NCBI GenBank assembly: GCA_900316355.1
Contig: ONCQ01000024.1
Coordinates: forward strand, 1 to 62,552
Length of the DNA: 62,552 bases
Direction of reading: 5' to 3'
Source of the DNA: an uncultured Prevotellaceae bacterium
GTDB lineage: Bacteria > Bacteroidota > Bacteroidia > Bacteroidales > Bacteroidaceae
The translations under genes and the position numbers were made by a program. Positions 6,064 to 20,693 of this stretch are shown piece after piece. Position 1 is the stretch's first letter, and each line of letters begins with the position of its first letter. The notes beneath the pieces were generated by a model, which was given only the letters and a program-made list of their open reading frames with translations, did not search any database and was not told where the DNA came from.

Positions 6064-6618
6064 CTACTCGTCGTCGAGGTCGAAGTCGAAGTCGGCGAAG
6101 AAGGTGGGGGTGTTGGCGGTTTGGGCGTCGAAGTCGTCGAGGGCGCGACGGTCCTTCTTGGTGGGGCGCCCTGTGCCGCGGGCACGTCCGATGAAGCCGC
6201 TGATGCGGTTCATCTCCAGGAGTTCATACTGCTCGGGGGCCGTGACATTCTCCAGTATCTCGGGGATGAGCTTGGCGCCCACGCGGTGCTCGATGGCCTG
6301 GAGGACACGGAAGCTGTAGGTGATGGGCGGCTTGCGGACATCGATGACATCGCCGACCTTCACCATTCGTGAGGGCTTCATCTGCACGCCGCCGATAGCC
6401 ACCTGCCCTTTCTTGCAGGCGGCAGCGGCTATGCTGCGCGTCTTGAAGATGCGGGCGGCCCAGAGGAAACGGTCCAAACGGGCAGACCCTCCCCCGGCAG
6501 ACCCACCCCCAACCCCTCCCGTGAGGGAGGGGAGAGGCTGGCGCGAAGATGATGGGCGCGAAGATGATGAGCGCGAAGATGATGGGCGCGAGGTTTGTTT
6601 ATTGTTATTGTGATACAT
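6064..6618 (-). CDS. S4-domain RNA-binding protein (Hsp15/HslR-like)
   Basis: The conserved S4 domain begins ARLDRFLWAARIFKTRSIAA, continues with CKKGQVAIGG and VKVGDVIDV, and is followed by a basic helix ending GRPTKKDRRAL. Proteins of this type bind structured rRNA; Hsp15 rescues stalled 50S subunits. I start at MYHNNNK (6618) because residues upstream of it are encoded by repeat DNA. The first 45 residues are not S4. They contain an SSSRP tract from a 15-bp tandem repeat (6541-6590) and a Gly-rich stretch, PSLTGGVGGGSAGGGSA, from a GC-rich palindromic arm. It closes the rplY - pth - S4 operon. The acidic tail FADFDFDLDDE is another low-complexity addition. Confidence 0.85.
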   Translation of the reverse strand: MYHNNNKQTSRPSSSRSSSSRPSSSRQPLPSLTGGVGGGSAGGGSARLDRFLWAARIFKTRSIAAAACKKGQVAIGGVQMKPSRMVKVGDVIDVRKPPITYSFRVLQAIEHRVGAKLIPEILENVTAPEQYELLEMNRISGFIGRARGTGRPTKKDRRALDDFDAQTANTPTFFADFDFDLDDE

Positions 6619-6699
6619 TGAGGACTGGAAAGTCTCCCCTTGGGGAGATTTAGAGGGGGGCACTCCCCTCCCTCACGGGAGGGGTTAGGGGTGGGTCTT
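6499..6699. repeat. Inverted pair of GC-rich arms around the S4 gene start
   Basis: Arm 6499-6538 (AGACCCACCCCCAACCCCTC...) lies inside the S4 coding region. Arm 6661-6699 is its near-perfect reverse complement, with the same CGTGAG apex, and contains the pth stop codon. The S4 start codon (6618) lies between them. A second-type copy (GTCTCCCCTTGGGGAGATTT) sits at 6627-6659. Confidence 0.85.
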
Positions 6700-7278
6700 T
6701 CTATTTAGCTGATTCATGGCCATCTGTATGCCGGCGAGGCAGAAGGTCTTGATGGCGGCGGTGGTTTGCTTGGTGCACTCGGGGATGAGGGCTTCCTCCT
6801 CGGGGGGTATCTTGCCGAGGACGAAGTCCACCTGCTGGCCTTTGTAGAAGTCGCTGCCGATGCCAAAACGCAGACGGGCATACTGCTGTGTGCCGAGGAT
6901 CTGGGCGATGTGCTTGAGGCCGTTGTGACCGGCGTCGCTGCCGCCGGGCTTCAGGCGCAGCTGTCCGAAGGGCAGGGCGAGGTCATCGACGCAGATGAGG
7001 AGGTGGTCCAGTTCTATCTTCTCCTGCTGCATCCAGTAGCGCACGGCATTGCCGCTGAGGTTCATGAAGGTGCTGGGCTTGAGGAGGATGAGCTGGCGAC
7101 CCTTGACGCTGATGCGGGTGACGAAGCCGTAGCGCTTGTCCTCCCACACGGTGGGCTTCCCCTTCTCTTCATTGACAGATGCCGCCAGGGCATCTACGAC
7201 GCGGAAGCCGATGTTGTGGCGCGTGCCCTCGTAGTCAGGGCCTATGTTACCGAGGCCGACGATCAAGAATTTTTCCAT
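6685..7278 (-). CDS. pth: Peptidyl-tRNA hydrolase
   Basis: Pth cleaves peptidyl-tRNA released from stalled ribosomes. The sequence [20 protein letters not shown] leads to the catalytic His in TRHNIGF. Asn sites are in [14 protein letters not shown] and AGHNGLKHI, and the active-site Asp is in [10 protein letters not shown]. From MEKF at 7278 the protein is 197 residues, normal for the family. The frame stays open upstream to an ATG at 7359 ([12 protein letters not shown]), adding 27 residues partly encoded by a GC-rich arm at 7281-7320, which ends 2 bp before the ATG at 7278. I prefer the shorter start. The last four residues (KTHP) and the stop codon come from another arm. It lies between rplY and the S4 gene. 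Confidence 0.93.
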
Positions 7279-7280
7279 AG

Positions 7281-7493
7281 GACTCTCCCCCAGCCCCTCC
7301 CTATGTGCAGGGAGGGGAGTATTCACCTTTGCGAAAAGTTTTTTTATGAAGGAGAACATCGTATGGGGGTATTATTGTTTATCGTATTGATTCAATTAAA
7401 TAAAGAACAAAGACGCAAAGTCTTCACATCCCTTGCGCCTTTGTTGTTAGTATAAACTCCCCTCCCTGCTTAGGGAGGGGTTGGGGGTGGGTC
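7281..7493. repeat. Inverted pair of GC-rich arms flanking the rplY-pth gap
   Basis: Arm 7281-7320 abuts the preferred pth start. Arm 7456-7493 abuts the rplY stop codon (7494-7496). They are inverted copies with related apexes (CTATGTGCAG and CTGCTTAG read inverted). The 135 bp between them contain no gene. Confidence 0.8.
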
Positions 7494-8096
7494 TTATGCC
7501 TCAGCCTCCTCTGCGGCAGCAGCACTACGTGCGTTACGGGTCATCTTAACCTGGCAAACGACAACGCTGGGGCTGGTGACGAGTTCGAGACCCTCGAAGC
7601 TGAGCTCGCCGACCTTGATGGTCTTACCGAGTTCGAGGTTGGTGACGTCGATATCCAGACGCTCGGGGATGGCGGTGTGAACAGCCTTCACCTTGAGTTT
7701 GCGGACGCTGGCAGCGAGCTTACCACCGGCCTTGACACCTTCTGCGAGGCCATTGAGCTTGATGGGCACTTCCATCACAATGGGCTTCTTGTCGGTGATC
7801 TGATAGAAGTCAACGTGGAGCACGTTGTCCTTCACGGGGTGGAACTGAGCCTCCTTGAGGATGGCGAGGCACTGCTGGCCATCAACGTCGAGCTTAACGG
7901 TGTAGATGTCGGGAGAATAGAGGAGCTTGCGGAGCTCGGCCTCTGTAGCAGCGAAGGAGAAAGCCTTGGGCAGGCCCTTCTCGTCCTTGAGTTCACCATA
8001 GAGGTTGCAGGGGATAACGCCCTGCTTACGCAGTTGCTTGGCAGCCTTCTTGCCGCCGGCGACACGTGCTGTGCCTTTGATTTCGATTGTCTTCAT
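7494..8096 (-). CDS. rplY: 50S ribosomal protein L25/Ctc, long form
   Basis: This 200-residue protein has the 5S-rRNA-binding L25 domain (MKTIEIKGTARVAGGKKAAK, VIPCNLYGE, VLHVDFYQI) in the first ~95 residues. A TL5/Ctc C-terminal beta domain follows (VPIKLNGLAEGVKAGGKL, VKAVHTAIPERLDIDV). The Ala/Glu-rich tail (SAAAAEEAEA) is common in this family. It is the first gene of the rplY - pth - S4 operon, an order I know from other Bacteroidales. A promoter element lies about 100 bp upstream, and a GC-rich arm begins immediately after the stop codon. Confidence 0.95.
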   Translation of the reverse strand: MKTIEIKGTARVAGGKKAAKQLRKQGVIPCNLYGELKDEKGLPKAFSFAATEAELRKLLYSPDIYTVKLDVDGQQCLAILKEAQFHPVKDNVLHVDFYQITDKKPIVMEVPIKLNGLAEGVKAGGKLAASVRKLKVKAVHTAIPERLDIDVTNLELGKTIKVGELSFEGLELVTSPSVVVCQVKMTRNARSAAAAEEAEA

Positions 8097-8192
8097 TTGT
8101 CTTTAAAAAATTTGTGTTACTCTAAATGAATGTTGCTTCATTCGCCATCACACTTGCTGCCTCTCGACAGGGATGTGCTCCGAAAGCGGGCG

Positions 8193-8200
8193 CAAAGGTA
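8193..8200 (-). promoter_or_regulatory. -7 element TACCTTTG for the rplY operon
   Basis: TAnnTTTG match on the - strand about 97 bp before the rplY ATG. No strict -33 TTTG was found. Confidence 0.55.
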
Positions 8201-8316
8201 GTGAAAAAGTTTAAAGATGATGGTTGAAAGTTGAAAGTTTTTGCTCTTTTGCATCATTTTTTCGTATTTTATGCCCTTTTGTGCCATTTTTTACGCTCGC
8301 AATAAATAATAATGTG

Positions 8317-8324
8317 TACCTTTG
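8317..8324 (+). promoter_or_regulatory. -7 element TACCTTTG upstream of the secreted toroid protein
   Basis: TAnnTTTG match 29 bp before the ATG at 8354; divergent from the rplY promoter. Confidence 0.6.
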
Positions 8325-8353
8325 AGGCCAAAATAGACTACACTAACTAAGAT

Positions 8354-11300
8354 ATGAAACGCTTCTCTCATTTCATCTTCATGGCATTGGGCACCATGCT
8401 GTCCCTGAATGCCTCAGCACAAACCGACGTCACGGCAACCTATCTCACAAATCCGTCGTTCGAGGCGGATGCTGCCAAATGCAACAGCACCACCGAACTC
8501 AAGGAGGGCATGGAAGGGCTGCGCGGCTGGAACCTCAGCAGCATTACGGGGTGGACCACCACAAGCCCCGGCAAGCAGCTGCTCATCTCAGCCGACTGCG
8601 CCACGGACAACAGCTTCGGAAAGACAGCCATCGCCGACGGCACCTATGCCTTCTACCAGCGTTTCGGCTGGGGCTCCGCCACAGGCACGCTGTCACAGAA
8701 GACCACAGCCGCACTGCCGGCAGGCAAGTACCAGATGACCTTCCGCTACAAGGCGTTTGCCGCTAACGGCGCTGCGTCCTCCTGCACGCCGGAGGTGAGG
8801 GCCACGACAACGCTGGGCTCGGAGAGCTATTCCTTTGAAGCCGGCAGCACGGATATCATGGGCACAACGAACTGGAGCACGGGTAAGGTGGTGTTCACGG
8901 TAGCAGCTCCAGAGGCTGTGACGCTCATCATCACCAACACCTTCGGCAACGGCGGCAGCAGCATCGCCATCGATGACGTGCGCCTCATCAGCATCCCCGA
9001 CGACTACGTGGAGCCCACCATCATCGGCGGCAAGGAGACGGATGTGGCGTCGCCCACGGAAGGCGTCATCACGCATGACTTCGTGGGCGAAGCAGCCATG
9101 ATGCAGGATCTGCTGCAGATGCTGACGAACCACCTGCCCTACATGAAGAGCCTTTATACCCCTTGTGTCTCCCCCAACTCAAAGGGCGAGGATTGCGGCT
9201 ACTTCAAGGACACCGAAGGATCGAACAACGATGAGAAAGTCGTGCGTCCTAACGCAGACTTCTCGATGGTCTGCGCCTTCCTCTACAAATACGCCAAAGG
9301 CAAGACAAGCCTGCCCGCCGGCTTCACATGGGACGAGGTGAAGGAGATGGCGCTGAAGAGCCTCATCTGGGGCTACAGCAGCCACAACGCCAACAAGTTC
9401 AAGGTCACCAGTCGCAACGCCTACTGGGGCAGCACCTCCACATCACAGTACACCTGGGAGAGCTCGCTGTGGGCGATGTCACTCTGCTACGCTGCCCATT
9501 TCCTGATGGATGAGCTGACGGCCGACCAGAAGACCTATATATATAATATGGTGAAGGCCGAATGCAACTACGAGCTCGGTCGCAGCATCCCCACGGGCTA
9601 TGCCGGCGACACGAAAGCCGAGGAGAATGGTTGGGAGGCTGACATCCTGGCCTGCGCGCTGGGCCTCTACCCCAACGATGCGCTGGCCAGCCAGTGGTTC
9701 GACCGCCTGCGTGCGTTCGCCATCAACAGCTACTCACAGGTGGATGACGCCAATGACCAGACAGTCATCGACCCCGACTACGACCAGAAGACGGTGGCCA
9801 GCTACTACCGCGGACAGAACCTCTACGACGACTACACACTGCAGAACCACAACCTGTTCCACACCAGCTATCAGAACGTGGTGCAGCAGGAGCTGGGCGA
9901 GGCCCATCTGGCGATGTTGCTGTTCCAAGGCGGCGACCCGAAGTGGAAAACCAATGCGCTGATGCACAACCAGCAGCATGTGCAGAACGACGTGCTGAAC
10001 TGGCTGGCACTGGCCGACGGCGAGCTGGCGATGCCCAACGGCAACGACTGGAGCCTGTTCCTCTTCGACCAGATCACCTCCTACTCCACCATGGCCTGCT
10101 TCCTGCGCGACAAGAACGCCCTGCTGCTGGAGAACATGGCCTATAAGTTCATCAAGGCACGCCAGACGACGACCACCGACGGCTCGTGGCTTCTGCGCTC
10201 CGATGTCGGCAGCCGCCGCATGGGTGTGGAGGCACACCGCGTGATGATGACCTATCTCATGCACTCCGTGGCCTCCACCGCCGACCTGAAGCCCGCCACA
10301 TGGCAGGAGTTCAGCGCCGAGTATCAGGATGCCCACCTCTTCAAGAGCCAGAACATCGTGCGCGCTTCCAGCAAGGACCGCTTCGTCACCTTCTCCTGGA
10401 GCACGGGGCTGAGCAGCTACACCGGCTACTTCACCGACACCACGCCCGACCGCAATAAGATTGTCTGCCCCTACCGCGCCAACAACACGGGTAACTTCCT
10501 GGGATGGTATAACGTCAGCGGCAAGGGCACCAACGCCACGCCCGTCGTGAGCGGTATCTATGACCTGAAGGACAACGCCTTCACGATGAACGGACGCATC
10601 AACACCAACGATGCCACCTTAGAGAACAGCTTCGTGCTGGCAGCCACGCCCGGCAACGCCATTGTCTATATGAACAATGTGAAGGGACTGCAGAGCGGCA
10701 CCATCACAGGTCGCCGCGGCGGCATGCTGGCCATCACCACCGATGAGTTCACACGTCCGCAGCGCACCCTCTACCACGCCGCCGGCCGCGTGCAGACAGA
10801 CGGCAAGCAGATGACACAGTTCGATGCCGACTGGGCCAACATCGACAACAGCATCGGCGTGGTCACCGTGGGCGGCACCGGCAAGATGGCCTTCGGCGAA
10901 CAGGCCAACAACAACAGCATCAACTGCTCGAAGTTCTATCCCATGTACTCCGCAAAGAGCGAGAGCTTCACGAAGGGGAAGGTGGTGGACCGTGCGGCTG
11001 TCATCTATTACAGCCAGGTGGATAGTGCTGTCACTAAGACCTTGGCAGCGCAGGCTACCAGCCTCACCGACGCGCTCCCCAACGGATGGAACGGCCTCGT
11101 CTGCGCCGACCCCGACGGCACCCGCTACCTCATCGTTGCCAACCTCGCAGGCGGCAGCAACAACAAGGCCGAGATGAAGGACGTCACCACCGAATACGGC
11201 GCGCCCGTGCTCACCACAGAGACCTTCATCACCGACAGCAAGGGCTCCAGCATCATCGCCCTCGATGAGAACCACGCACTGATGCAGCCGCTCAAGGTGT

Positions 11301-12388
11301 TCATCAAGGGCAGCGGCGTCGCCGTCAAGGGTTTCAACCCCTACGATGACCTGCAGTTCTACGTCCGCACACTCGGCAACGAGCCGGAGACCATTACCAT
11401 TACAGCTTTCGTGGATGGCAAGACCATCTCCACGACCGAGACCATTGAGGGCACCGTGGTGGTTCGTCTAGACGGCGAACAGATTCATGCCTACACCGAG
11501 GAGTTAGAGCCCTTCTACTATGAGGACATCACCGAGAACTACATCGCAAACCCGAGCTTCGAGGAGGACATCACGTGGGGCACGACAGGCAACATCACCC
11601 TGAACAACGTAACCTATAACCCCTGCTACACGCAGTCGGTGAGTGCCGCCAGCAACGACTTCCCGCAGGTGCTGCCCGTGAAGGGGTGGAAAGCGGAGTC
11701 CAACCTTTCTCCTGCCAGCAAATATTGCCTCCTCTACTCCATGCCCTACAGCTTCACACAATACTGTGTCTCGCCCTCGAACATCGGCAACAGCGCCAGC
11801 ATCATGGCTGTGCCTGCTGCGTTTGAAGAGGAAGTGGGCGCTCGCTGCCTCAGCATCCTCAACTCCTGGACAATAGGCACAAATGCCATCAGCCAGACCA
11901 TCCAGATACCTCAGAGCGGCAGCTTCGCCTTGACCTTTGACCTGCGCTATGACTGCGCCAATGAGAGTCGTCGCACGGCTCCCAACGTGGTTGCCACCAC
12001 CGGAGGTAATGTCAACACCCTGCTCTGTGGCGTGGTGGCAGAAGGTAAGGAATACTACGCCCCTTTTCCCGCTGCGGCCGGCACATGGGAGCAGATGACC
12101 GTGCCCTTTGAGCTGTCCACTACAGCTGATGTCAAGACCGTCACCCTGCGCCTCGGCCTTCAAACAACAGCCAACCAAGGTGCTGCCAACCAGACACGCG
12201 TCTATATTGACAATGTGCGACTGTGGCAAAAGAAGGAGACAGTGCCGGTGGGCATCGGACTCACCCCCGCCCCCTCTCTTTCAAAGGGGGGAGAGGCTGG
12301 CGCGGTGTATGACCTCAGTGGACGCCGATTGTCCCAGGTGCCACAGAAGTGCATCTTCATCCGCAATGGCCAGAAGCTCATGCGCTGA
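8354..12388 (+). CDS. Large secreted carbohydrate-active protein: CBM-like ends around an alpha/alpha-toroid lyase-like core
   Basis: The 1344-residue protein has a signal peptide (MKRFSHFIFMALGTMLSLNA). A first jelly-roll module opens with YLTNPSFEADAA (about 30-215) and a second with NYIANPSFEEDI (about 1060-1290); both resemble carbohydrate-binding folds. The centre (about 240-720) is helical, with TKAEENGWEADILACALGLY, HNLFHTSYQNVVQQELGE and MPNGNDWSLFLFDQITSYS. A beta-rich part with WSTGLSSYTGYFTD follows. This order fits polysaccharide-lyase/heparinase-like toroid enzymes, but I cannot assign a family or name catalytic residues. The C-terminus (VYDLSGRRLSQV...) looks like a Bacteroidetes sorting tail. 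A GC-rich arm (12260-12299) encodes LTPAPSLSKGGEAGA just before that tail. Confidence 0.75.
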   Translation: MKRFSHFIFMALGTMLSLNASAQTDVTATYLTNPSFEADAAKCNSTTELKEGMEGLRGWNLSSITGWTTTSPGKQLLISADCATDNSFGKTAIADGTYAFYQRFGWGSATGTLSQKTTAALPAGKYQMTFRYKAFAANGAASSCTPEVRATTTLGSESYSFEAGSTDIMGTTNWSTGKVVFTVAAPEAVTLIITNTFGNGGSSIAIDDVRLISIPDDYVEPTIIGGKETDVASPTEGVITHDFVGEAAMMQDLLQMLTNHLPYMKSLYTPCVSPNSKGEDCGYFKDTEGSNNDEKVVRPNADFSMVCAFLYKYAKGKTSLPAGFTWDEVKEMALKSLIWGYSSHNANKFKVTSRNAYWGSTSTSQYTWESSLWAMSLCYAAHFLMDELTADQKTYIYNMVKAECNYELGRSIPTGYAGDTKAEENGWEADILACALGLYPNDALASQWFDRLRAFAINSYSQVDDANDQTVIDPDYDQKTVASYYRGQNLYDDYTLQNHNLFHTSYQNVVQQELGEAHLAMLLFQGGDPKWKTNALMHNQQHVQNDVLNWLALADGELAMPNGNDWSLFLFDQITSYSTMACFLRDKNALLLENMAYKFIKARQTTTTDGSWLLRSDVGSRRMGVEAHRVMMTYLMHSVASTADLKPATWQEFSAEYQDAHLFKSQNIVRASSKDRFVTFSWSTGLSSYTGYFTDTTPDRNKIVCPYRANNTGNFLGWYNVSGKGTNATPVVSGIYDLKDNAFTMNGRINTNDATLENSFVLAATPGNAIVYMNNVKGLQSGTITGRRGGMLAITTDEFTRPQRTLYHAAGRVQTDGKQMTQFDADWANIDNSIGVVTVGGTGKMAFGEQANNNSINCSKFYPMYSAKSESFTKGKVVDRAAVIYYSQVDSAVTKTLAAQATSLTDALPNGWNGLVCADPDGTRYLIVANLAGGSNNKAEMKDVTTEYGAPVLTTETFITDSKGSSIIALDENHALMQPLKVFIKGSGVAVKGFNPYDDLQFYVRTLGNEPETITITAFVDGKTISTTETIEGTVVVRLDGEQIHAYTEELEPFYYEDITENYIANPSFEEDITWGTTGNITLNNVTYNPCYTQSVSAASNDFPQVLPVKGWKAESNLSPASKYCLLYSMPYSFTQYCVSPSNIGNSASIMAVPAAFEEEVGARCLSILNSWTIGTNAISQTIQIPQSGSFALTFDLRYDCANESRRTAPNVVATTGGNVNTLLCGVVAEGKEYYAPFPAAAGTWEQMTVPFELSTTADVKTVTLRLGLQTTANQGAANQTRVYIDNVRLWQKKETVPVGIGLTPAPSLSKGGEAGAVYDLSGRRLSQVPQKCIFIRNGQKLMR
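12260..12299. repeat. Single GC-rich arm inside the secreted protein's linker
   Basis: CTCACCCCCGCCCCCTCTCT followed by GGGGGGAGAG. It lies in frame between the second carbohydrate-binding-like module and the C-terminal tail. The same type is at 19992-20028 in lpd. Confidence 0.75.
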
Positions 12389-12393
12389 CAAAA

Positions 12394-12484
12394 CCTGAAA
12401 CCTGAAACCTGAAACTTTAAACCTTAAACTTTAAACCTTAAACTTTAAACCTTAAACTTTAAACCTTAAACTTTAAACTTTAAA
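12394..12484. repeat. Array of 13 heptamers (CCTGAAA, then CTTTAAA/CCTTAAA)
   Basis: Thirteen consecutive 7-bp units with unbroken period: three CCTGAAA, then alternating CTTTAAA and CCTTAAA. It fills almost the whole gap between the secreted protein and the asparaginase start (TTG at 12494). Confidence 0.9.
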
Positions 12485-12493
12485 CTAAACACC

Positions 12494-13540
12494 TTGCCCC
12501 GCACAGGTCGCGTACTTCTCATCTACACCGGCGGCACCATCGGCATGGGCCGCAACCCCGCCACTGATGCGTTGGAGCCTCTTGACTTCAACCATCTCGT
12601 GCAGCGTATGCCTGAGTTGCAGGCCATCCCTGTCGGCATCGATGTCTATCAGTTCCCTGAGCCCATCGACAGCAGCGACATGAGTCCGCGGCTATGGGCC
12701 CGCATCGTGGAGATCATCGTGGGCGGCTATGACCGCTACGACGGCTTCGTCATCCTCCACGGCACCGACACGATGGCCTTCACGGCCTCGGCGCTCAGCT
12801 TCATGCTGGAGAACCTGACGAAGCCCGTCATCCTGACCGGTTCGCAGTTGCCCATCAACCAGTTGCGCACCGACGGCAAGGAGAACCTCATCACCAGTAT
12901 CGAGATAGCTGCTGCACACCACACCGACGGCACGCCGCGCGTTCCGGAGGTCTGCATCTATTTCAGCGGCAAGTTGCTACGCGGCAACCGTAGCACGAAA
13001 ATCAACAGCGAGGGCTTCAATGCCTTCGACAGCTTTAACTTCCCGCCTCTGGCGGAAGCTGGCGTCAGCATCCACTACCGCGACGACCTCATCCTGCACC
13101 CCGACTACAGCCGGCCCATGACGCCACACTTCGTCATGGACACCAATGTCGTGGTCTTCACCCTCTTCCCCGGCATTCAGGAAGAGATGGTGCGCCACCT
13201 GCTGGAAGCGCCCCATCTGCGAGGCATCGTCATGCGCACCTACGGCAGCGGCAACGCCCCCCAACAGCCATGGCTCATGCAGGCTCTTACGGAAGCCACG
13301 AGGCGCGGCATCGTCATCATCAACATCACCCAATGTGCCGCAGGTCCCGTTGAGATGGCCCGTTATAGCGGCGGCTATCTGCTGAAGAACGCGGGCGTCA
13401 TCAGCGGCTACGACGGTACCGTCGAGTGCGCCATCGCCAAACTCATGCACCTGCTGGGCCACACCACCGACACCGACCTCATCCGCGAACGCATGAACCG
13501 TCCGCTTCGCGGCGAGATTACCTGTGGGGCGCAGTCATAA
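12494..13540 (+). CDS. ansA: L-asparaginase, type I (cytoplasmic)
   Basis: It hydrolyses asparagine to aspartate and ammonia. The 348-residue sequence has the first catalytic Thr in LLIYTGGTIGMG and the second signature in VILHGTDTMAFTASALSFM. TGSQLPINQLRTDGKENL carries the conserved Lys region. The C-terminal domain (GIVMRTYGSGNAPQQ, GIVIINITQCAAG) is typical of type I enzymes. No signal peptide is present, so it acts in the cytoplasm. I see no ATG; the start is TTG at 12494, giving MPRTGRVLLIY, 9 bp after a 13-unit heptamer array that may set leader length. It may feed aspartate and ammonia to the glutamate dehydrogenase also found in this window. Confidence 0.93.
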   Translation: MPRTGRVLLIYTGGTIGMGRNPATDALEPLDFNHLVQRMPELQAIPVGIDVYQFPEPIDSSDMSPRLWARIVEIIVGGYDRYDGFVILHGTDTMAFTASALSFMLENLTKPVILTGSQLPINQLRTDGKENLITSIEIAAAHHTDGTPRVPEVCIYFSGKLLRGNRSTKINSEGFNAFDSFNFPPLAEAGVSIHYRDDLILHPDYSRPMTPHFVMDTNVVVFTLFPGIQEEMVRHLLEAPHLRGIVMRTYGSGNAPQQPWLMQALTEATRRGIVIINITQCAAGPVEMARYSGGYLLKNAGVISGYDGTVECAIAKLMHLLGHTTDTDLIRERMNRPLRGEITCGAQS

Positions 13541-13634
13541 GAGGATATTCACTTGTGGCCTGTCGTTTTGAGTGTTCTTAAACAAGCCTTTTTTGCTAAA
13601 ATTTGTAGTTTCCGAACATTATTCCTGTTATTCT

Positions 13635-13665
13635 TTTGAGGTTCGGAAACATTCTACTATCTTTG
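13635..13665 (+). promoter_or_regulatory. Promoter TTTG-N19-TATCTTTG before the lipoate ligase/gcv genes
   Basis: -33 TTTG at 13635-13638 and -7 TATCTTTG at 13658-13665 with a 19-bp spacer, 31 bp before the ATG at 13697. I see no other TAnnTTTG between here and lpd, which supports one operon. Confidence 0.75.
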
Positions 13666-13696
13666 CCGACGCTACGTAAGACATACGACCCCTCTG

Positions 13697-14407
13697 ATGA
13701 CCCATCTCTCACTACTCTCTGATGAGACGCGTCGCCTCTCCTTCTATCTGGCAATGGAAGAATGGGCGGCACGGCAGTTGTGCCTTGAAGATGATGTCTT
13801 CTTCCTGTGGCAGGTGCAGCCATCGGTCATCTTCGGCCGCAATCAGGTCATCGAGAACGAAGTCAACATCGACTACTGCCGCGAGCATGGCATCCAGCTC
13901 TATCGCCGCAAGAGCGGAGGCGGCTGTGTCTATGCAGACATGTCGAATGTGATGATGAGTTACATCACCCGTTCCGATGAGGTCGTCACGACCTTCGCCC
14001 GCTATATGGAGATGGTATGCCAGATGCTTCGCGAGCTCGGCCTCTCCGCCACGTCCACCGAGAACAACGATGTCCTCATTGACGGCCGTAAGGTGTCGGG
14101 CAATGCCTTCTACCACATACCCGGACACAGCATCGTGCATGGCACCCTGCTCTTCGACACGGACATGGAGTACATGCTCCACGCCATCACACCGCCACAG
14201 GTGAAGCTCTCGAAGCACGGCGTGCAGAGCGTGCGTCAGCGCATCACCCTGCTGAAGGAGCATACCGACATCTCCATCGAAGACTTCAAGCACTTCGCCA
14301 TCCAACGGCTCTGCGACCAGGAACTGCAGCTTACCGAGTCAGACGTAGCAGCCATCGAAAGATTGGAACAAGAGTACCTGAGTCATGAGTTTATATATGG
14401 GAAATAA
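13697..14407 (+). CDS. lplA: Lipoate-protein ligase family protein
   Basis: The protein has 236 residues. Its RRKSGGGCVYAD motif is the ligase signature (RRxSGGGxV). NNDVLIDGRKVSGNAFYH carries the lipoyl-AMP-binding Lys, and HGTLLFDTDME completes the pattern. Such enzymes attach lipoate to carrier lysines, here most likely GcvH encoded two genes downstream. It is shorter than E. coli LplA and lacks its C-terminal accessory domain, so it could need a partner or act as an amidotransferase. The gap to gcvT is only 72 bp and has no promoter motif. Confidence 0.88.
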   Translation: MTHLSLLSDETRRLSFYLAMEEWAARQLCLEDDVFFLWQVQPSVIFGRNQVIENEVNIDYCREHGIQLYRRKSGGGCVYADMSNVMMSYITRSDEVVTTFARYMEMVCQMLRELGLSATSTENNDVLIDGRKVSGNAFYHIPGHSIVHGTLLFDTDMEYMLHAITPPQVKLSKHGVQSVRQRITLLKEHTDISIEDFKHFAIQRLCDQELQLTESDVAAIERLEQEYLSHEFIYGK

Positions 14408-14442
14408 ACCCAAGAAATGAATCCCTTAAACAAAACCTGATT

Positions 14443-14479
14443 AGTAATAAATCGTAAATCGTAAATAATTCAATCGTAA
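14443..14479. repeat. Heptamer array (AATCGTA) running into the gcvT start codon
   Basis: Units AGTAATA, AATCGTA, AATCGTA, an 8-base AATAATTC and AATCGTA, followed directly by AATG, so the start codon continues the unit. No purine-rich ribosome-binding site is seen. Confidence 0.75.
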
Positions 14480-15583
14480 ATGAAAAAAACCTGTCTCTAT
14501 GACCGCCATGTGGCACTCGGCGCACTGATGTCGCCCTTCGGCGGATTCATCATGCCCATTCAGTACTCGAACATCACCGATGAGCACAACGCCGTGCGCC
14601 AGCACTGCGGTGTCTTCGATGTCTCGCACATGGGCGAAGTGCGCATCACAGGGCCCGATGCAGAGCGCTACGTGCAGCACATCTTCACCAATGATGTCAC
14701 CAATGCGCCCGTCGGACAAATCTACTATGGGATGATGTGCTACCCCAACGGCGGCACGGTCGATGACCTGCTCGTCTATAAGATGGGCGACAACGACTTC
14801 TTCCTCGTCATCAATGCCGCCAATATCGACAAGGATGTCGAGTGGATGCAACAGCAGATGCAGGGCTTCAATATCCACTTCGAACACCAGAGCGACTACT
14901 ATGGCCAGCTCGCCGTGCAAGGTCCCGAGGCTCAGGCTGTCGTCGAGGAAGTCCTCGGTCTGCCCTGCGCAGAGCTGAAGTTCTACACGGCAAAAGTAGC
15001 CCCCTCGGGGGCAGTAGGGGGGGCCAGCTCTTCCATCATCATCTCCCGCACCGGCTATACTGGCGAGGATGGTTTCGAGATCTACGGCTCCCACGAGTTC
15101 ACGCAGCAGGCATGGGATAAGCTCATGGAGAGCGGACGCTGCAAGCCCTGCGGCCTCGGCTGCCGCGACACACTGCGCTTCGAGGTGGGTCTGCCGCTCT
15201 ACGGTGATGAACTCAGCGCCGACATCAGCCCCATCATGGCAGGTCTGGGCATCTTCGTGAAGCTCGACAAACCCGAGTTTATCGGCAAGGAAGCCCTCGC
15301 CGACCAGAAAGCCAACGGCGTGGCACAGAAGCTCGTAGGCATAGAGCTCGCCGACAAGGCCATCCCCCGCCACGGCTACCCTGTCCTCACACCCGAAGGC
15401 GAAGCCGTGGGTGAAGTCACCACGGGATATCACTGCCTCAGCGTCGATAAGAGCGTCTGCATGGCGCTCGTCAAAACCGACTATGCCAAGCTCGGCACCC
15501 CCTTGCAGGTACAGATCCGCAAGAAGGTGTTCCCCGGCGTGGTGGTGAAGAAGCAATTCTATAACAAGAGTTATAAGAAATAA
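14480..15583 (+). CDS. gcvT: Glycine cleavage system T protein (aminomethyltransferase)
   Basis: It transfers the methylene group from aminomethyl-lipoyl GcvH to tetrahydrofolate and releases ammonia. In 367 residues it shows [30 protein letters not shown], the folate-site Asp region ([19 protein letters not shown]) and [15 protein letters not shown]-rich arm at 14998-15025 inserts [14 protein letters not shown] between FYTA and [10 protein letters not shown], a surface loop before the second domain. The frame is intact and all motifs are present, so the protein is probably active. The GC-rich pair at 15584 starts right after the stop codon. Confidence 0.95.
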
Positions 15584-15752
15584 AGACCCACCCCCTGCCC
15601 CTCCCGTCAGGGAGGGGAGAGCCTGCGGGTAGTCAACATTATTATCCTTTGCATTTCATAAACATTAATAATATCTTAAAGAATGACCCTATAACCTCTG
15701 CCGCTCAAATACATTCTACTCTCCCCCTACAAGGGGGAGCGGGGAGGGGGTC
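15584..15752. repeat. GC-rich arms flanking the gcvT-gcvH gap
   Basis: Arm 15584-15622 begins one base after the gcvT stop codon. Arm 15718-15752 ends 8 bp before the gcvH ATG. They are inverted but match less well than other pairs (apexes CGTCAG and CTACAAG). The ~95 bp between them are AT-rich with no gene. Confidence 0.75.
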
Positions 15753-15760
15753 CGTTACTT

Positions 15761-16138
15761 ATGGCAAACTTTGAATCAGGACTCTACTACAGTGAGTCAC
15801 ACGAGTACGTTCGCGTAGAAGGCGAATTTGGTTACATTGGTATTTCTGACTATGCTCAGCACGCACTGGGCAATGTCGTATATGTCGATATGCCCGAGGT
15901 GGATGACGAAGTCACCGCAGGCGAAGAGTTCGGCGCCGTGGAGAGCGTGAAGGCCGCCAGCGACCTGATTGCTCCCGTCAGCGGCACCGTCGTGGAAATC
16001 AACGAAGCTCTCGAGGACGAGCCCGAACTCCTCAACAAGGACGCTTTCGGCAACTGGATCATCAAGGTTCAGCTCTCCGACCCGTCCGAGCTCGACAACC
16101 TCATGGATGTGGAGGCATATAAGAAGCATTGCGAATAA
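15761..16138 (+). CDS. gcvH: Glycine cleavage system H protein
   Basis: This 125-residue lipoyl carrier shuttles the aminomethyl group between the P and T proteins. The lipoylated Lys is K64 in GAVESVKAASDL. YSESHEYVRVEGEFGYIGIS and YAQHALGNVVYVDMPEV are typical of GcvH. No repeat arm lies inside this small gene, although arms flank it on both sides (15718-15752 and 16141-16178). The adjacent lipoate ligase gene is its probable modifying enzyme. Confidence 0.97.
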   Translation: MANFESGLYYSESHEYVRVEGEFGYIGISDYAQHALGNVVYVDMPEVDDEVTAGEEFGAVESVKAASDLIAPVSGTVVEINEALEDEPELLNKDAFGNWIIKVQLSDPSELDNLMDVEAYKKHCE

Positions 16139-16140
16139 GA

Positions 16141-16270
16141 AGACCCACCCCTCACCCTCCCTTGTAGGGAGGGAGTGGTTACCTTTTAAAAACAGTATTC
16201 TTTTATGAGTACACCCAGTCAAAAACTATCTACTCCCCTCCCTACAAGGGAGGGGCAGGGGGGAGGGTCT
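16141..16270. repeat. Inverted pair of GC-rich arms enclosing the gcvPA start codon
   Basis: Arm 16141-16178 starts 2 bp after the gcvH stop. Arm 16230-16270 is inside gcvPA. They share the apex TTGTAGGGAGGG. The gcvPA ATG at 16205 lies in the 51-bp loop. Confidence 0.85.
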
Positions 16271-17629
16271 GCATTTAAGTACTTTCCCCATACCGAGGAA
16301 GACCTGCAGGAGATGCTGAAGGTGACAGGCGTTTCGTCTGTCCACGACCTCTTCGCCGACGTGCCCGAGGCAGCACGCTTCAAGCGTGACTACAACCTGC
16401 CCGATGCACTCTCCGAGACCGACCTGCGCCTCTTCTTCGAGCAACTGACACACCCATTGAACACCCAACAGCTCATCTGCTTTGCCGGTGCCGGGTGCTA
16501 CGACCACTACGCTCCCAGCGTGGTGCAGAACATCATCCAGCGCTCCGAGTTCCTGACCTCCTACACACCATATCAGGCTGAGATCTCTCAGGGCACGCTG
16601 CACTACATCTTCGAATATCAGTCGATGGTTGCCGAACTCACCGGCATGGACATCTCCAACGCCTCGATGTACGACGGTGCCACCGCCACTGCCGAGGCCA
16701 TGATGATGGCATGGGGTAATGCCAAGAAGGCCACGCGCGTGCTCATCAGCGAGACCCTCGACCCGAAGGTGCGACGCGTCGTTGATACCTACGCTCACTT
16801 CCACGGTGTGCCCCTCCAACTCATCCCGGCCAAGAACGGCGCCCTCGACCGCGAGGCGCTCGACAAGGAGCTGGCCGGAGGCGGCGTGGCAGGTGTCATC
16901 GTGCAACAGCCAAACTACTATGGCATCGTGGAAGACTACACAGGCATCGCCGATGCCGTACATGAGCAGAAGGGCATCTTCGTCGTCAACGCCAACCCCA
17001 GCGACCTGGCCATCCTGAAGACACCGGGTGAGTGGGGTGCTGACGTGGCTGTCGGCGAAGGCCAGAGCCTCGGCATCCCCATGACCTTCGGCGGTCCGGG
17101 CGTAGGCTTCATGGCTTGCACCGAGAAACTCATCCGCAAGATGCCCGGGCGTATCGTAGGGCAAACCCTCGACAACCGCGGCCAGCGCGCCTTTGTGCTC
17201 ACCTTGCAAGCCCGCGAACAGCATATCCGTCGCCAGAAGGCGACCTCTAATATCTGTTCCAACCAGAGTCTCATGGCACTCTACGTGACCATCTACCTCT
17301 CGCTCATGGGCAAGGAAGGTCTGCGCGAGGTGGCTGAGATGAGCTATGCCAACGCCCACAGTCTCCATGACAAGCTCCTGGCCACGGGTAAGTTCAAAGA
17401 CACCTTCCCCGGCCAGCCCTTCTTCAACGAGTTCTGCCTCGACTACGACGGCGACCTCGATGCCCTCCTGGCCGAAGCCACCGAATGCGGCTACCTCGCA
17501 GGTGTGAAAGTAGGCGAGAAGACGCTTATGCTGGCCGTCACCGAGCAGCGCACACCCGAAGAGATTGACGAGTTAGTGGAAATCCTAAAGACCCTCCCCC
17601 CAGCCCCTCCCTTGCAGGGCGGGGAGTAA
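16205..17629 (+). CDS. gcvPA: Glycine dehydrogenase (decarboxylating) subunit 1
   Basis: This is the N-terminal half of the P protein, which decarboxylates glycine with PLP; the partner is GcvPB. From FKYFPHTEEDLQEMLKVTGV on it is a normal GcvPA, with YTPYQAEISQGTLHYIFEYQ, GMDISNASMYDGATA, CSNQSL-type motifs and GGPGVGFMACTEK. The first ~20 residues (STPLPTREGQGGGS) come from a GC-rich arm inserted just after the start. The last ten (PPAPPLQGGE) and the stop codon come from another arm. The 474-residue length exceeds the usual ~440 by about these additions. It is followed 47 bp later by gcvPB. Confidence 0.95.
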   Translation: MSTPSQKLSTPLPTREGQGGGSAFKYFPHTEEDLQEMLKVTGVSSVHDLFADVPEAARFKRDYNLPDALSETDLRLFFEQLTHPLNTQQLICFAGAGCYDHYAPSVVQNIIQRSEFLTSYTPYQAEISQGTLHYIFEYQSMVAELTGMDISNASMYDGATATAEAMMMAWGNAKKATRVLISETLDPKVRRVVDTYAHFHGVPLQLIPAKNGALDREALDKELAGGGVAGVIVQQPNYYGIVEDYTGIADAVHEQKGIFVVNANPSDLAILKTPGEWGADVAVGEGQSLGIPMTFGGPGVGFMACTEKLIRKMPGRIVGQTLDNRGQRAFVLTLQAREQHIRRQKATSNICSNQSLMALYVTIYLSLMGKEGLREVAEMSYANAHSLHDKLLATGKFKDTFPGQPFFNEFCLDYDGDLDALLAEATECGYLAGVKVGEKTLMLAVTEQRTPEEIDELVEILKTLPPAPPLQGGE

Positions 17630-17748
17630 ATTCCATCAAGAACAGACTCCTTTAATTATTTAATTTGATCAATACAATGGAACAAAATACAAATAGTCAA
17701 ATACAAACTACTCCCCGCCCTGCAAGGGAGGGGCAGGGGGGAGGGTCT
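17589..17748. repeat. Inverted pair of GC-rich arms spanning the gcvPA stop and gcvPB start
   Basis: Arm 17589-17629 encodes the gcvPA C-terminus and its stop. Arm 17708-17748 encodes the gcvPB N-terminus. They are 41-bp reverse complements with about two mismatches and share an apex variant (TTGCAGGGCGGGGAG) not seen in other pairs. The gcvPB ATG (17677) lies between them. Confidence 0.9.
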
Positions 17749-19362
17749 GTGGGCAGACGTCTCTATGGCAACCTCATCTTTGAACTCTCAAAGAAAGGTC
17801 GCAAAGGTTACTCCCTGCCTCAGGACTACGACCGCTCGCACAGCACTTCCGAGCTGCCCGAGGCGCTGCGCCGCAAGGAGGCTGCCCGTTTGCCGGAGTG
17901 CGACGAGCTGACCGTGGTGCGTCACTACACGAACCTCAGCCATAACAACTTCGGCGTCAACGACGGCTTCTACCCTCTCGGCTCCTGCACGATGAAGTAC
18001 AACCCCGTCATCAACGAGGAGATAGCTGCCATGAAGGCCTTTGCCGGCCTGCATCCCCTGCAGCCCGCCGAGACCTGCCAAGGAGCGCTCGAAGTTTATT
18101 ACAACCTCCAGCAATCCCTCGCCGAGCTGGCTGGCCTCAGCGAGTTCACCCTGAATCCCTGCGCCGGTGCCCACGGCGAGCTGACCGGCCTGATGGTCAT
18201 CCGCGCCTATCATGAGGCGGCCCCCCATTCAGCCCCCGAGGGGGCTACGGATGTAAAATCCGCTGATAGCAAAACAACAGAAGCCCCCTCGGGGGCCGTA
18301 GGGGGGGCCAGCTCCCGAACCAAGGTCCTCATTCCCGACTCTGCCCACGGCACCAACCCCGCCTCCGCAGCAGTCTGCGGCCTTGAGGTGGTGGAGGTGA
18401 AGAGCCTCGCCGACGGCACTGTCGATGTCGATCACCTGCGTCAGCTCCTCGATGAGATGGGTGACCAGGTGGCAGCAATGATGATGACCAACCCCAACAC
18501 CCTTGGCATCTTCGAGCCGCACGTGCTGGAGATTACCGAGATGGTTCACAAGGCCGGCGGCCTGATGTACTACGACGGCGCCAACCTCAACGCCCTCCTC
18601 GGCGAATGCCGCCCGGGCGACATGGGTTTCGACGTCATGCACATTAACCTCCACAAGACGTTCTCCACTCCTCACGGTGGTGGAGGCCCCGGCAGCGGTC
18701 CCGTCGGTGTACGTAAGGGTTTGGAGCAGTTCCTGCCTTATCCACGCGTCAAGATGGAGGCCCCCCTTTCGTCCCCCGAGGGGGACACGGCACCGGCGTT
18801 CTCTATTGACTGGGGTAAAGAAGCCCCCTCGGGGGCAGTAGGGGGGGCTGGCACTTCTTCTGTCGGCAGCTTCTTTGGCAACTACGGCGTGATGCTGAAG
18901 GCCTACGCTTACATCCTCAGCCTCGGTCGTGAGAACGTGAAGATGGTAGGACCGTTGGCCACGCTCAACGCTAATTATATTAAGGAACGCCTGCGCGATG
19001 ACTACCTTCTCCCCATCGAGGGCCTGTGCAAGCACGAATGCGTCTTCGACGGTCTCGTAGATAAGAGCACGGGCGTCACCACGATGGACGTTGCCAAGCG
19101 CCTCCTCGACTACGGCTACCATGCTCCCACCATCTACTTCCCCCTCCTCTTCCATGAGAGCCTCATGATAGAGCCCACGGAGAACGAGAGCAAGGAGACC
19201 ATTGATGCCTTCATCGACGTGATGCACAAGATAGCCGCCGAGGCCAAGAGCGACCCCGAATTGGTCAAGAGCGCTCCCCACAACACGCCCATCGGCCGTG
19301 TGGATGACGTACTCGCTGCCAAGCAACCCGTAACAACGTATTGGAAAAGCATAGAAGCATGA
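17677..19362 (+). CDS. gcvPB: Glycine dehydrogenase (decarboxylating) subunit 2 with in-frame repeat insertions
   Basis: This is the PLP-bearing half of the P protein. MHINLHKTFSTPHGGGGPGS carries the PLP Lys; YPLGSCTMKYNPVINEE, PDSAHGTNPASAAVCG and HECVFDG are conserved. ATG at 17677 is chosen over an in-frame TTG at 17665. Three additions lengthen it to 561 residues versus roughly 480 in relatives: an N-terminal arm (PRPAREGQGGGS), a paired insertion between YHEA and RTKVLIPD (APHSAPEGATDVK, then [13 protein letters not shown]), and a paired insertion around FSIDW (MEAPLSSPEGDT, then [12 protein letters not shown]). All keep the frame and lie in predicted surface loops. It ends in an ATGA overlap with lpd. 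Confidence 0.95.
   Translation: MEQNTNSQIQTTPRPAREGQGGGSVGRRLYGNLIFELSKKGRKGYSLPQDYDRSHSTSELPEALRRKEAARLPECDELTVVRHYTNLSHNNFGVNDGFYPLGSCTMKYNPVINEEIAAMKAFAGLHPLQPAETCQGALEVYYNLQQSLAELAGLSEFTLNPCAGAHGELTGLMVIRAYHEAAPHSAPEGATDVKSADSKTTEAPSGAVGGASSRTKVLIPDSAHGTNPASAAVCGLEVVEVKSLADGTVDVDHLRQLLDEMGDQVAAMMMTNPNTLGIFEPHVLEITEMVHKAGGLMYYDGANLNALLGECRPGDMGFDVMHINLHKTFSTPHGGGGPGSGPVGVRKGLEQFLPYPRVKMEAPLSSPEGDTAPAFSIDWGKEAPSGAVGGAGTSSVGSFFGNYGVMLKAYAYILSLGRENVKMVGPLATLNANYIKERLRDDYLLPIEGLCKHECVFDGLVDKSTGVTTMDVAKRLLDYGYHAPTIYFPLLFHESLMIEPTENESKETIDAFIDVMHKIAAEAKSDPELVKSAPHNTPIGRVDDVLAAKQPVTTYWKSIEA
18219..18309. repeat. Inverted GC-rich arm pair inside gcvPB, first
   Basis: Arms 18219-18246 (GGCCCCCCATTCAGCCCCCG...) and 18282-18309 (AGCCCCCTCGGGGGCCGTAG...) are 28-bp reverse complements with few mismatches. 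Thirty-five bp lie between them. Confidence 0.88.
18758..18849. repeat. Inverted GC-rich arm pair inside gcvPB, second
   Basis: Arms 18758-18785 and 18822-18849 are of the same type and size as the first pair, but the 36-bp middle is unrelated and includes apparent native codons (FSIDW). The right arm is nearly identical to the single arm in gcvT (14998-15025). Confidence 0.88.
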
Positions 19363-20693
19363 CTGATCTCCTTATCATCGGCGCAGGCCCGGGTGGCTAT
19401 AAAACCGCCCTCCACGCCGCCAAGCACGGGCTCAAGGTGACCATCTTTGAGGCGGCACACGTAGGTGGTACCTGCCTCAACGTGGGCTGCATCCCCACGA
19501 AGACATACGTGCATTCCACCTCTTTTGCCGAAGCCATCGAGCGCCAGCCGCAAGTGGTGGAGCAGCTTCGCGGTGGCATCGAAACCTTGCTCGCGCATCC
19601 CAATATTACATTGGTACACGAGAAAGCGAAGTTTGTAGATGCCCATACCATCCAAGCCTCCTCGGGGGAGGTCTGGAAGGGGACTAACATCATCATCGCC
19701 ACAGGTTCCGACAGCAAGCTCATCCCCGTGCCTGGCATTGACAGCCCCAACGTCGTTGACTCCACCGGCCTCCTTCAGCTCGGCACCCTCCCCAAGCGCC
19801 TCTGCATCATCGGTGCAGGCGTTATCGGTATGGAGTTTGCCAGCGTTTTCAACCGCTTTGGGTCTGAAGTCACGGTCATAGAGTTCCTCAAGGAATGTCT
19901 GCCTGCCCTCGACAGCGATATCGCCAAGCGGCTGCGTAAGCAGTTGGAGAAGCAAGGTATCAAGTTCTATATGGGAGCAGGGGTGAAAGGCCTCACCCCC
20001 GCCCCCTCTCCCATGGGCGAGGGGAGTGTAGTCCTTTTCGAGCAGAAAGGCAAGGAGCTCTCAGTTGAGGCAGATGTTGTACTGGTAGCCACGGGCCGCA
20101 AGCCCCGTACCGAGGGTTTGAACCTCGAAGCCCTCGGCATCACCCTGGAACGCAACGGTGCCATCCCCGTTGATGAACATTTCAGAGTTCTCTGCGATGG
20201 GGGGAAAGAAAGCCTCCCCCTACGGGGAGGTTTGGAGGGGGCTTTATTTGCCATCGGCGATGTCAACGGTCGTCAGATGCTCGCTCACGCCGCCGAATAC
20301 CAAGGCCACCACGTCGTGAACCGCATCCTCGGCATCGAGGATCATATCCGCTTCGACGTGATGCCCGCCGCCATCTTCACCATACCCGAAGCCGCCTGCG
20401 TAGGCCCCAGCGAGGACCAGCTGAAGGAACAGGGCACACCCTATGAGTGTCACAAATCCTTCTACCGCGCCAATGGCAAGGCTTTGGCGATGAACGAGAC
20501 AGAGGGCATGGTCAAGCTGTGCACCGAACCCGGTGAGGGCCGCATCCTCAGCGCCCACATCTTCGGAGCCCATGCCGCAGACCTCGTGCAGGAGGTGACC
20601 GCCTACATCACCCTCGGCGCCACCCTGCGCCAACTCCGCGAGACGGTGCACATCCACCCCACCCTCTCCGAAGTACTCATCGAGGTCAACTAA
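19359..20693 (+). CDS. lpd: Dihydrolipoyl dehydrogenase (glycine cleavage L protein)
   Basis: It reoxidises dihydrolipoyl-GcvH with FAD and NAD+. It shows the FAD motif LLIIGAGPGGYKTALHAAKH, the redox disulphide GGTCLNVGCIPTK, the NAD motif CIIGAGVIGMEFAS, FAIGDVNGRQMLAH and the C-terminal catalytic His in IHPTLSEVL. The ATG at 19359 overlaps the gcvPB stop (ATGA), so translation is coupled; an in-frame TTG at 19341 is rejected. Two repeat arms add GLTPAPSPMGEGSV (19992-20028) and KESLPLRGGLEGA (20207-20244), the second just before the FAD-binding GD motif. The frame is intact. The 444-residue length is near normal, so some native residues may have been replaced. Confidence 0.95.
   Translation: MTDLLIIGAGPGGYKTALHAAKHGLKVTIFEAAHVGGTCLNVGCIPTKTYVHSTSFAEAIERQPQVVEQLRGGIETLLAHPNITLVHEKAKFVDAHTIQASSGEVWKGTNIIIATGSDSKLIPVPGIDSPNVVDSTGLLQLGTLPKRLCIIGAGVIGMEFASVFNRFGSEVTVIEFLKECLPALDSDIAKRLRKQLEKQGIKFYMGAGVKGLTPAPSPMGEGSVVLFEQKGKELSVEADVVLVATGRKPRTEGLNLEALGITLERNGAIPVDEHFRVLCDGGKESLPLRGGLEGALFAIGDVNGRQMLAHAAEYQGHHVVNRILGIEDHIRFDVMPAAIFTIPEAACVGPSEDQLKEQGTPYECHKSFYRANGKALAMNETEGMVKLCTEPGEGRILSAHIFGAHAADLVQEVTAYITLGATLRQLRETVHIHPTLSEVLIEVN
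19992..20244. repeat. Two GC-rich arms inside lpd (two subfamilies)
   Basis: 19992-20028 is the CTCACCCCCGCCCCCTCT type also seen at 12260. 20207-20244 is the CCTCCCCCTACGGGGAGG type also seen at 6627-6659. They are not partners of each other. Confidence 0.75.

Follow-up and report, generated by a model that had tools for sequence, protein, structure and literature searches.

What are the short GC-rich palindromic arms that sit inside housekeeping genes of an uncultured Prevotellaceae bacterium, and which gene, if any, is responsible for their spread? The question arises from a contig of 62,552 nucleotides (the window, contig C47 of an assembly of 3.16 Mb that is 91% complete), in which such arms interrupt, among others, the genes of the glycine cleavage system. 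An earlier reading of the letters alone (the sequence-only reading) had likened them to Rickettsia palindromic elements and to REPINs, the paired form of repetitive extragenic palindromic (REP) sequences. Our analysis suggests that the inverted arm pairs are probably short, nonautonomous copies of a mobile element that, when complete, has a gene for a DUF559 (PF04480) protein between two arms, because DUF559 loci are flanked by arms and because DUF559 genes and arms co-occur in genomes. This full form, arm-DUF559 gene-arm, spans about 0.4 to 0.65 kb and is found in the genome that holds the window (the source genome), in the genus, and across the phylum. Below, relatives' genomes carry G numbers and fetched loci L numbers.

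Arms were detected with a scripted finder of hairpins with tails, for which reversed sequence and dinucleotide shuffles served as controls. Read in its own direction, an arm consists of a C-rich tail, a short gap, and then a hairpin (e.g., CCCCTCCC-GTGA-GGGAGGGG). The tails read GACCC[AT]CCCCC, GACTC[TA]CCCCC, GGCCCCCC, GCCTCACCCCC, and similar, which gives the subtypes GACCC, GACTC, GGCCCC, and GCCTC in short form. The finder returned 20 arms in the window, compared to one in the reversed sequence and 0, 0, and 2 in three shuffles. Sixteen of them are located at 6.5 to 20.2 kb, three at 43.6 to 49.6 kb, where copies at 43.6 and 49.5 kb had been announced, and a weak one at 59.5 kb probably reflects chance. 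Tails that are low in C escape the finder (e.g., at 18218 and 20208), and very GC-rich DNA makes it noisy, with 3 arms against 10 in the reversed control for a Deinococcus stretch. Three arms were added by hand (6629 on the minus strand, 18218 on the plus strand, and 20208 on the minus strand), which sets the count for the first region at 19, against about 22 in the sequence-only reading; the arms that it described are thus real. An arm-like stretch at 19655 in lpd was rejected as probably native, with a segment of the same length in G016 and G003. In 854,794 bp of the source genome, the sample used for the arm statistics, the finder returned 173 arms versus 13 when the sequence was reversed. 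A strict pattern written for GACCC-type arms matched the whole genome 146 times (partly overlapping) and the reversed genome 0 times. An Rfam scan of the window found one tRNA and no match to the arms.

The starting observation for the link to DUF559 was a wide pair of arms with outward tails, 448 bp apart, that encloses a DUF559 gene. In the genus, an outward arm lies within 250 bp of 25 of 27 DUF559 loci, and 17 of the 27 are flanked in this way on both sides (3 of 30 loci, L171, L185, and L190, were dropped since the match lay near the contig end, and L183 was kept though cut short). The same test gives one side in 1113 of 20000 (5.6%) and both sides in 41 of 20000 (0.2%) random blocks of the source genome, and 2 and 0, respectively, of 22 control loci around gcvPB. 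A blind test for inverted repeats was positive at 23 of 26 DUF559 loci, compared to 3 of 30 loci of RAYT (the REP-associated tyrosine transposase), 0 of 22 gcvPB loci, and 3 of 8 loci of S23 four-helix proteins in the source genome. Across 61 genomes of the genus, DUF559 and arms are both present in 31, arms alone in 6, DUF559 alone in 6, and neither in 18 (odds ratio, 15.5; p = 8e-6 by Fisher's test, a guide only, as the genomes are related). At least three of the genomes with DUF559 alone (G001, G002, and G047) hold arms of subtypes invisible to the pattern directly beside the DUF559 gene. For a comparison between arms and proteins, 51 DUF559 records were reduced to 45 nonidentical domains. 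An arm lies within 260 bp of 42 of these domains, and 34 are flanked by arms on both sides. In 10 of these 34 elements, the left hairpin matches the right one exactly, versus 0.5% between elements, and arm distance modestly tracks protein distance (Mantel r of 0.30, reached by 0 of 5000 permutations). The source genome itself has four DUF559 genes, with arms on both sides on contigs C9, C33, and C34 and on one side on C56, and the subtypes of these arms resemble those of the short pairs. For the TTGTA subtype, a DUF559 element is present in G016 (L202).

If a RAYT (TnpA-REP) transposase instead moved the pairs as ordinary REPINs, the link to DUF559 would be incidental. RAYT-like proteins do occur in 38 of the 61 genus genomes, two open reading frames (ORFs) of the source genome match the REP_Tyr_transpos profile better than IS200, one of the two loci (L002) shows by eye an arm-like stretch directly after the stop codon, and the lack of a detectable target-site duplication (see below) would fit such an enzyme. 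However, both matches of the source genome fall under the NCBIfam cut-off, the arm tails are not GTAG or CGTC, and arms are found within 250 bp on both sides of 0 and on one side of 1 of 30 RAYT loci (1 of 31, L107, was dropped, and a partial match marks the center of some of these loci). Moreover, 35 whole RAYT loci (141,112 bp) hold 18 arms by the finder, a density not above that of the source genome overall, and RAYT associates weakly with arms across the 61 genomes (27 both, 10 arms only, 11 RAYT only, and 13 neither; odds ratio, 3.2; p = 0.057). On the flank counts, RAYT was rejected as the linked gene, so that the RAYT-like partner with matching ends sought by the sequence-only reading gives way to DUF559, and we consider a REPIN origin of the pairs improbable. 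As a side observation, the RAYT-like gene of locus L001 lies, by eye, between direct copies (1137 and 2687) of a promoter-like stretch ending in TTTGCAG, as though gene and stretch had been inserted together. The RAYT-like proteins of L001 and L002 also have a long C-terminal extension and, between HUH and Y motifs assigned by eye, low-complexity in-frame repeats.

How are the short pairs built? Among close neighbors (≤300 bp) in the genome sample, 54 of 60 have their tails pointing outward (+-), 3 are -+, 2 are --, and 1 is ++, in agreement with the earlier impression of inverted pairs. The spacers of these 54 pairs measure 22 to 175 bp, and type B pairs have a spacer of 36 or 37 bp in 8 of 9 cases. 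The two hairpins of a pair are identical in 12 of 54 pairs, versus a mean of 1.8 and a maximum of 7 in 2000 unstratified permutations; when permuted within coarse classes, the mean is 6.1, and 12 is reached in 6 of 5000 permutations. In class A, the largest class, which mixes subtypes, 14 of 29 pairs have two identical apices (mean of 3.1 and maximum of 9 in 5000 permutations). The earlier observation of a match within pairs is therefore real, with more identities than under permutation for hairpins overall and for apices in class A. The spacers also proved mostly unrelated between pairs, as had been proposed: an all-against-all comparison of the 54 gave 24 matches at an E value of ≤0.01, 20 of which cover 14 to 36 nt, and the longest has 93% identity over 86 nt. 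In 53 of the 54 pairs (one was left out), no target-site duplication was detected, with a mean best repeat of 1.19 versus 1.03 when permuted, a value reached by 48 of 300 permutations. The base just outside the tail is A in 41 of 53 cases at one end and 38 of 53 at the other.

To see what the arms did to their host genes, five gcv sites were aligned with same-genus sister species and lpd with six relatives. The frames of gcvT, gcvPA, gcvPB, lpd, an S4 protein, an ArsP-type permease, and dxr (assigned by Pfam; gcvH by context) are all open, so that the sequence-only reading was right about intact frames in these seven ORFs. In the gcvT-gcvH gap, which is 176 bp long here and holds pair 3, the sister genomes G012, G024, and G013 have 6 bp and G005 has 26 bp; eight further relatives have other sequence of 80 to 479 bp, while in G016 the gap holds a separate GC-arm pair and in G015 a GC arm. 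The gcvH-gcvPA gap (pair 4) measures 138 bp here and in G016, which shares the insertion, versus 16 to 17 bp in G012, G008, and G024, and other sequence of 45 to 608 bp in seven relatives. At the pair 6 site in gcvPB (18216), 100 bp here correspond to 16 to 19 bp in 10 of 13 relatives; the other three carry different inverted-arm inserts with the gcvPB frame open, namely, AT-rich inserts of 97 bp in G016 and G003 and one of 121 bp of the GTTGACAA type in G018. These short or empty sister sites support the view that arm, spacer, and arm arrived together, a joint insertion that the sequence-only reading had considered, and the different inserts at the same sites suggest that these are tolerant positions that were hit repeatedly. 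Its proposal of native host codons between the arms stands for at most one of the five gcv sites compared. At 4 of 5 gcv sites, the spacer is absent from relatives with short gaps, while the pair 7 spacer (18758 to 18851) encodes APAFSIDWGK, similar to a loop of relatives such as EGFIIDWGT, and might therefore contain native sequence. A start codon within a spacer was found once, as the position of the native gcvPA ATG reads GCA and an in-frame ATG in the pair 4 spacer would serve as its putative start; the native ATG position of gcvPB reads GTG, with the right arm of pair 5 upstream. As for the single arms, the type B arm site in gcvT (14993) spans 51 bp here and 24 to 57 bp in 12 relatives, the arm at 19989 in lpd is an extra peptide relative to G003, G012, G005, G008, and G024 with another segment in G016, and the lpd site at 20208 varies in length among relatives. 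At the gcvT site, we also noticed a different GC arm in G015 (L148). In the genome sample, 27 of the 54 pairs lie wholly and 23 partly inside ORFs and 4 are intergenic, and of 65 other arms, 47 lie inside and 18 between ORFs (greedy ORF calling). Since ORFs called in this way cover 90% of the sample, an enrichment of arms in genes is unsupported. Likewise, there is no support for arms being specially free of stops, as they leave 4.7 of 6 frames open versus 4.4 in random DNA, and whole elements leave 1.6 of 6 versus 1.9.

A further possibility is that arms arise and multiply by template switching at quasi-palindromes, with no enzyme of their own, and that pairs converge by correction between inverted repeats. 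Such a process would account for apices that match within pairs and for varied, mostly unrelated spacers. It leaves unexplained why identical arm subtypes are scattered over unrelated sites, why sister sites are empty, and why arms are linked to DUF559, and we give it very little credence. Copying from arm to arm may have taken place but is not needed to account for the pairs.

What, then, could DUF559 do? It is a family of small, Vsr-like PD-(D/E)XK nucleases. The matches are over the Pfam cut-off, and all 45 domains retain the D, E, D, and H that such an active site should have. Among solved structures, the closest chain is the endonuclease-like 3hrl (1.2e-16), with a weak match to the mobile intron protein 3r3p (0.072); the PADLOC HEase profile scores 19 bits. 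Like the arms, the nuclease gene resides in frame within host genes. On contig C34 of the source genome, its frame continues through the right arm into a HAD-like protein (HAD by eye), and Pfam identified nine chimeric ORFs. In the genus, DUF559 is located at the C-terminal end of phosphoglycerate mutase and GcpE/IspG, and internally in two sugar epimerase-type enzymes, while guanylate kinase and RNase H have it N-terminally; in the phylum, it lies in frame inside LeuRS and MetH and is also joined to HsdM (and, by eye, to HsdR and other methylases). No intein family was found by Pfam in the nine chimeras scanned. Of the 45 domains, 17 are part of ORFs of at least 250 codons, which is not an unbiased rate because 14 of the 17 relatives' stretches among the DUF559 records were selected for long frames. 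In six complete genomes, also chosen for long DUF559 frames, the chimera is the sole gene above the LeuRS cut-off in 6 of 6, and therefore the essential single-copy leuS is interrupted with its frame open throughout. There are two insertion sites, occupied in three genomes each, and each site is empty in the other three.

These leuS sites bear on the alternative in which the arm pairs came first, spreading by other means, and DUF559, as a homing-type nuclease gene, parks in them as safe sites. The weak kinship with a homing nuclease noted above (3r3p and PADLOC HEase) speaks for it. The leuS sites, however, are either empty or DUF559 bearing, with arm-like sequence alongside the gene in all six genomes; a state with arms only was not seen in these six, and arm type tracks nuclease type across elements. 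We therefore regard parking as unlikely, though less so than the RAYT scenario, and continue with a DUF559 element that carries its own arms.

This element is not restricted to the genus. DUF559 is matched in 78 of 148 sampled Bacteroidota genomes and in 34 plasmid records outside Bacteroidota. Eleven of 12 fetched plasmid-record loci have an arm within 250 bp, compared to 1 to 15% of random blocks from six of those replicons, and the twelfth (L221), armless by the finder, has flanking inverted repeats. The arrangement differs there, e.g., with a whole pair on each side of DUF559 in Sphingomonas. We lean slightly toward a widespread class of bacterial mobile elements that would depend on a Vsr-like DUF559 nuclease instead of a transposase. 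The nuclease would bring GC-rich hairpin arms, along with its own gene, into essential genes in frame and with no splicing, and swarms of short arm-only copies would be left behind; the class would include many enzyme-less REP-like repeats in Bacteroidota and in proteobacterial, cyanobacterial, and Deinococcus replicons.

Several observations weigh against a mobile arm-DUF559-arm element as the source of the short pairs. Two of the 27 genus DUF559 loci are without an arm, and arms occur without a DUF559 match in six genomes and DUF559 without arms in another six, in incomplete assemblies and with a pattern that sees one subtype group. The abundant TTGTA subtype is without DUF559 in the assembly of the source genome. 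A comparison of the 54 spacers with DUF559 elements gave only 5 short matches, in 4 spacers, and the spacers were accordingly rejected as deletion remnants of such elements. In the phylum, 17 of 25 usable DUF559 loci have a flanking inverted repeat (4 of 29, L235, L238, L240, and L245, were dropped), one of which (L250) is not like a GC arm, and both repeats and arms are missing at L233, L246, and L248. By the finder, arms flank both sides of only 3 of the 12 plasmid-record loci, and the DUF559-adjacent hairpins recur in a 50-kb control stretch in one of six replicons (Azospirillum). The leuS chimeras have arms by the finder on both sides in one of six, on one side in four, and on neither in one, with the blind test adding inverted repeats in three of the six. 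At gene starts (guanylate kinase and HAD), translation could restart after DUF559. The Fisher and Mantel values overstate independence because the genomes share ancestry, and r is only 0.30. DUF559 could also have settled in arm pairs that already existed, and the mobility of arms and DUF559 is deduced from sequence comparisons.

With these reservations, we infer that the nuclease drives movement. It would recognize its own arms, as folded hairpins or as a long inverted repeat, and cut or nick there, after which a copy of the element would be pasted at a new place without target duplication; short pairs could be served in trans. The frame would be kept because only in-frame insertions tolerated in loops survive selection. 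The match between the arms of a pair would reflect the joint insertion of one parent's arms, possibly aided by template switching between the inverted repeats.

How does such an element compare with known systems? Rickettsia palindromic elements are palindromic and inserted in frame in housekeeping genes, and the arms in gcvPB, lpd, and gcvPA resemble them in form, with the difference that an enzyme-bearing full form exists here. The analogy drawn initially thus keeps the palindromic in-frame form and the inverted pairs and loses the RAYT partner and the REP tags. Miniature inverted-repeat transposable elements (MITEs) are short nonautonomous copies with the inverted ends of a longer element, a description that also fits the pairs; here, however, the target-site duplication typical of DD(E/D)-type MITEs was not detected, the ends are themselves hairpins, and the spacers are mostly unrelated. 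Homing endonuclease genes, inteins, and Vsr-like (EDxHD) homing nucleases likewise place a small nuclease inside conserved host genes, with the one weak sequence match, but the elements described here lack an intein family in the nine chimeras (Pfam) and have their own palindromic arms, many unrelated sites, and short nuclease-less copies. REPs share with the arms the short hairpins tailed on one side, the inverted pairs, the many copies, the subfamilies, and a single linked enzyme gene. In REPINs, however, the enzyme is of the HUH Y1 type instead of a Vsr-like PD-(D/E)XK protein, the tags are GTAG/CGTC instead of GACCC/GGCCCC/GCCTC, the location is mainly extragenic, whereas here half of the pairs lie wholly within genes, and here the full form encloses the enzyme gene between two arms. 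REPs within genes have already been reported (PMC3733652). In the same DUF559 family, Caulobacter VsrA is described in PMC12907096 as a Vsr-like endonuclease responsible for a DNA damage response; the role proposed there is in mismatch repair, and its main text has no words starting with "palindrom." We found no literature linking DUF559 to palindromic repeats in a search that mostly left out subscription papers, so that a prior description is possible; otherwise, the arm-DUF559 element would be an undescribed kind of selfish DNA. DUF559 would be a candidate enzyme for palindromic repeats hitherto without one and, if true, a second solution, unrelated to RAYTs, to the task that RAYTs perform. 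It also places a nuclease gene in frame in single-copy essential proteins; as no splicing domain is seen, each chimera has to function as it is, be cut, or be skipped. What spreads such repeats can now be tested directly, using one small protein and two hairpins.

The window holds eight inverted pairs, which are listed together with the single arms.

Table 1. Palindromic arms and associated start codon in the window
Feature	Position	Strand	Remark
Pair 1, left arm	6499..6534	+	Tail GACCC, hairpin CCCCTCCC-GTGA-GGGAGGGG; C-terminal end of S4 gene
Single arm of another subtype, nested within pair 1	6629..6662	-	By hand, missed by finder
Pair 1, right arm	6663..6698	-	97% complementary to left arm
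Pair 2, left arm, GGACTC subtype	7280..7319	+	Finder
Pair 2, right arm	7455..7494	-	Finder
Single arm near 3' end of 1344-codon ORF	12257..12296	+	Finder
Single type B arm, gcvT, in frame	14993..15026	-	Finder; compared with relatives
Pair 3, left arm, directly 3' of gcvT stop	15584..15619	+	
Pair 3, right arm, gcvT-gcvH gap	15715..15753	-	
Pair 4, left arm, 3' of gcvH stop	16141..16177	+	gcvH named by context
ATG in pair 4 spacer, putative gcvPA start	16205..16207	+	
Pair 4, right arm, gcvPA N terminus	16231..16270	-	Same insertion in G016
Pair 5, left arm, gcvPA C terminus	17589..17626	+	
Pair 5, right arm, upstream of native gcvPB start position	17709..17748	-	ATG to GTG there
Pair 6 (type B), left arm, gcvPB, in frame	18218..18247	+	By hand, missed by finder
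Pair 6, right arm, gcvPB	18278..18310	-	Compared with relatives
Pair 7 (type B), left arm, gcvPB, in frame	18758..18787	+	Finder
Pair 7, right arm, gcvPB	18817..18851	-	Finder; spacer resembles loop of relatives
Single arm, lpd, in frame	19989..20026	+	Finder
Single arm, lpd, in frame	20208..20243	-	By hand
Pair 8, left arm, ArsP-type permease	43580..43615	+	Finder
Pair 8, right arm	43700..43736	-	Finder
Single arm, N-terminal end of dxr	49534..49571	+	Finder

S23 four-helix proteins were also considered as a partner of the GC arms and rejected, as 0 of 8 loci of the source genome have such arms (1 of 9, L157, was dropped). Small S23-like ORFs at gcv gaps are instead flanked by AT-rich or GTTAAC-type inverted arms. 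Identified by eye as S23-like, they are located in the gcvT-gcvH gap in L134 (G003), L135 (G018), and L139 (G008) and in the gcvH-gcvPA gap in L136 (G010) and L138 (G005), the same gaps in which the source genome has GC arms. Such flanking inverted repeats also accompany 3 of the 8 S23 loci of the source genome (L156, L158, and L161; PF05635), so that S23 with AT-rich arms looks like a parallel element family with a protein of its own. Finally, the window contains tandem arrays at 12391 to 12487 (AAACCTGAAACC/AAACCTTAAACT) and at 6541 to 6600 (GCGCGAAGATGATGG), the latter in the S4 gene and adjoining an arm.

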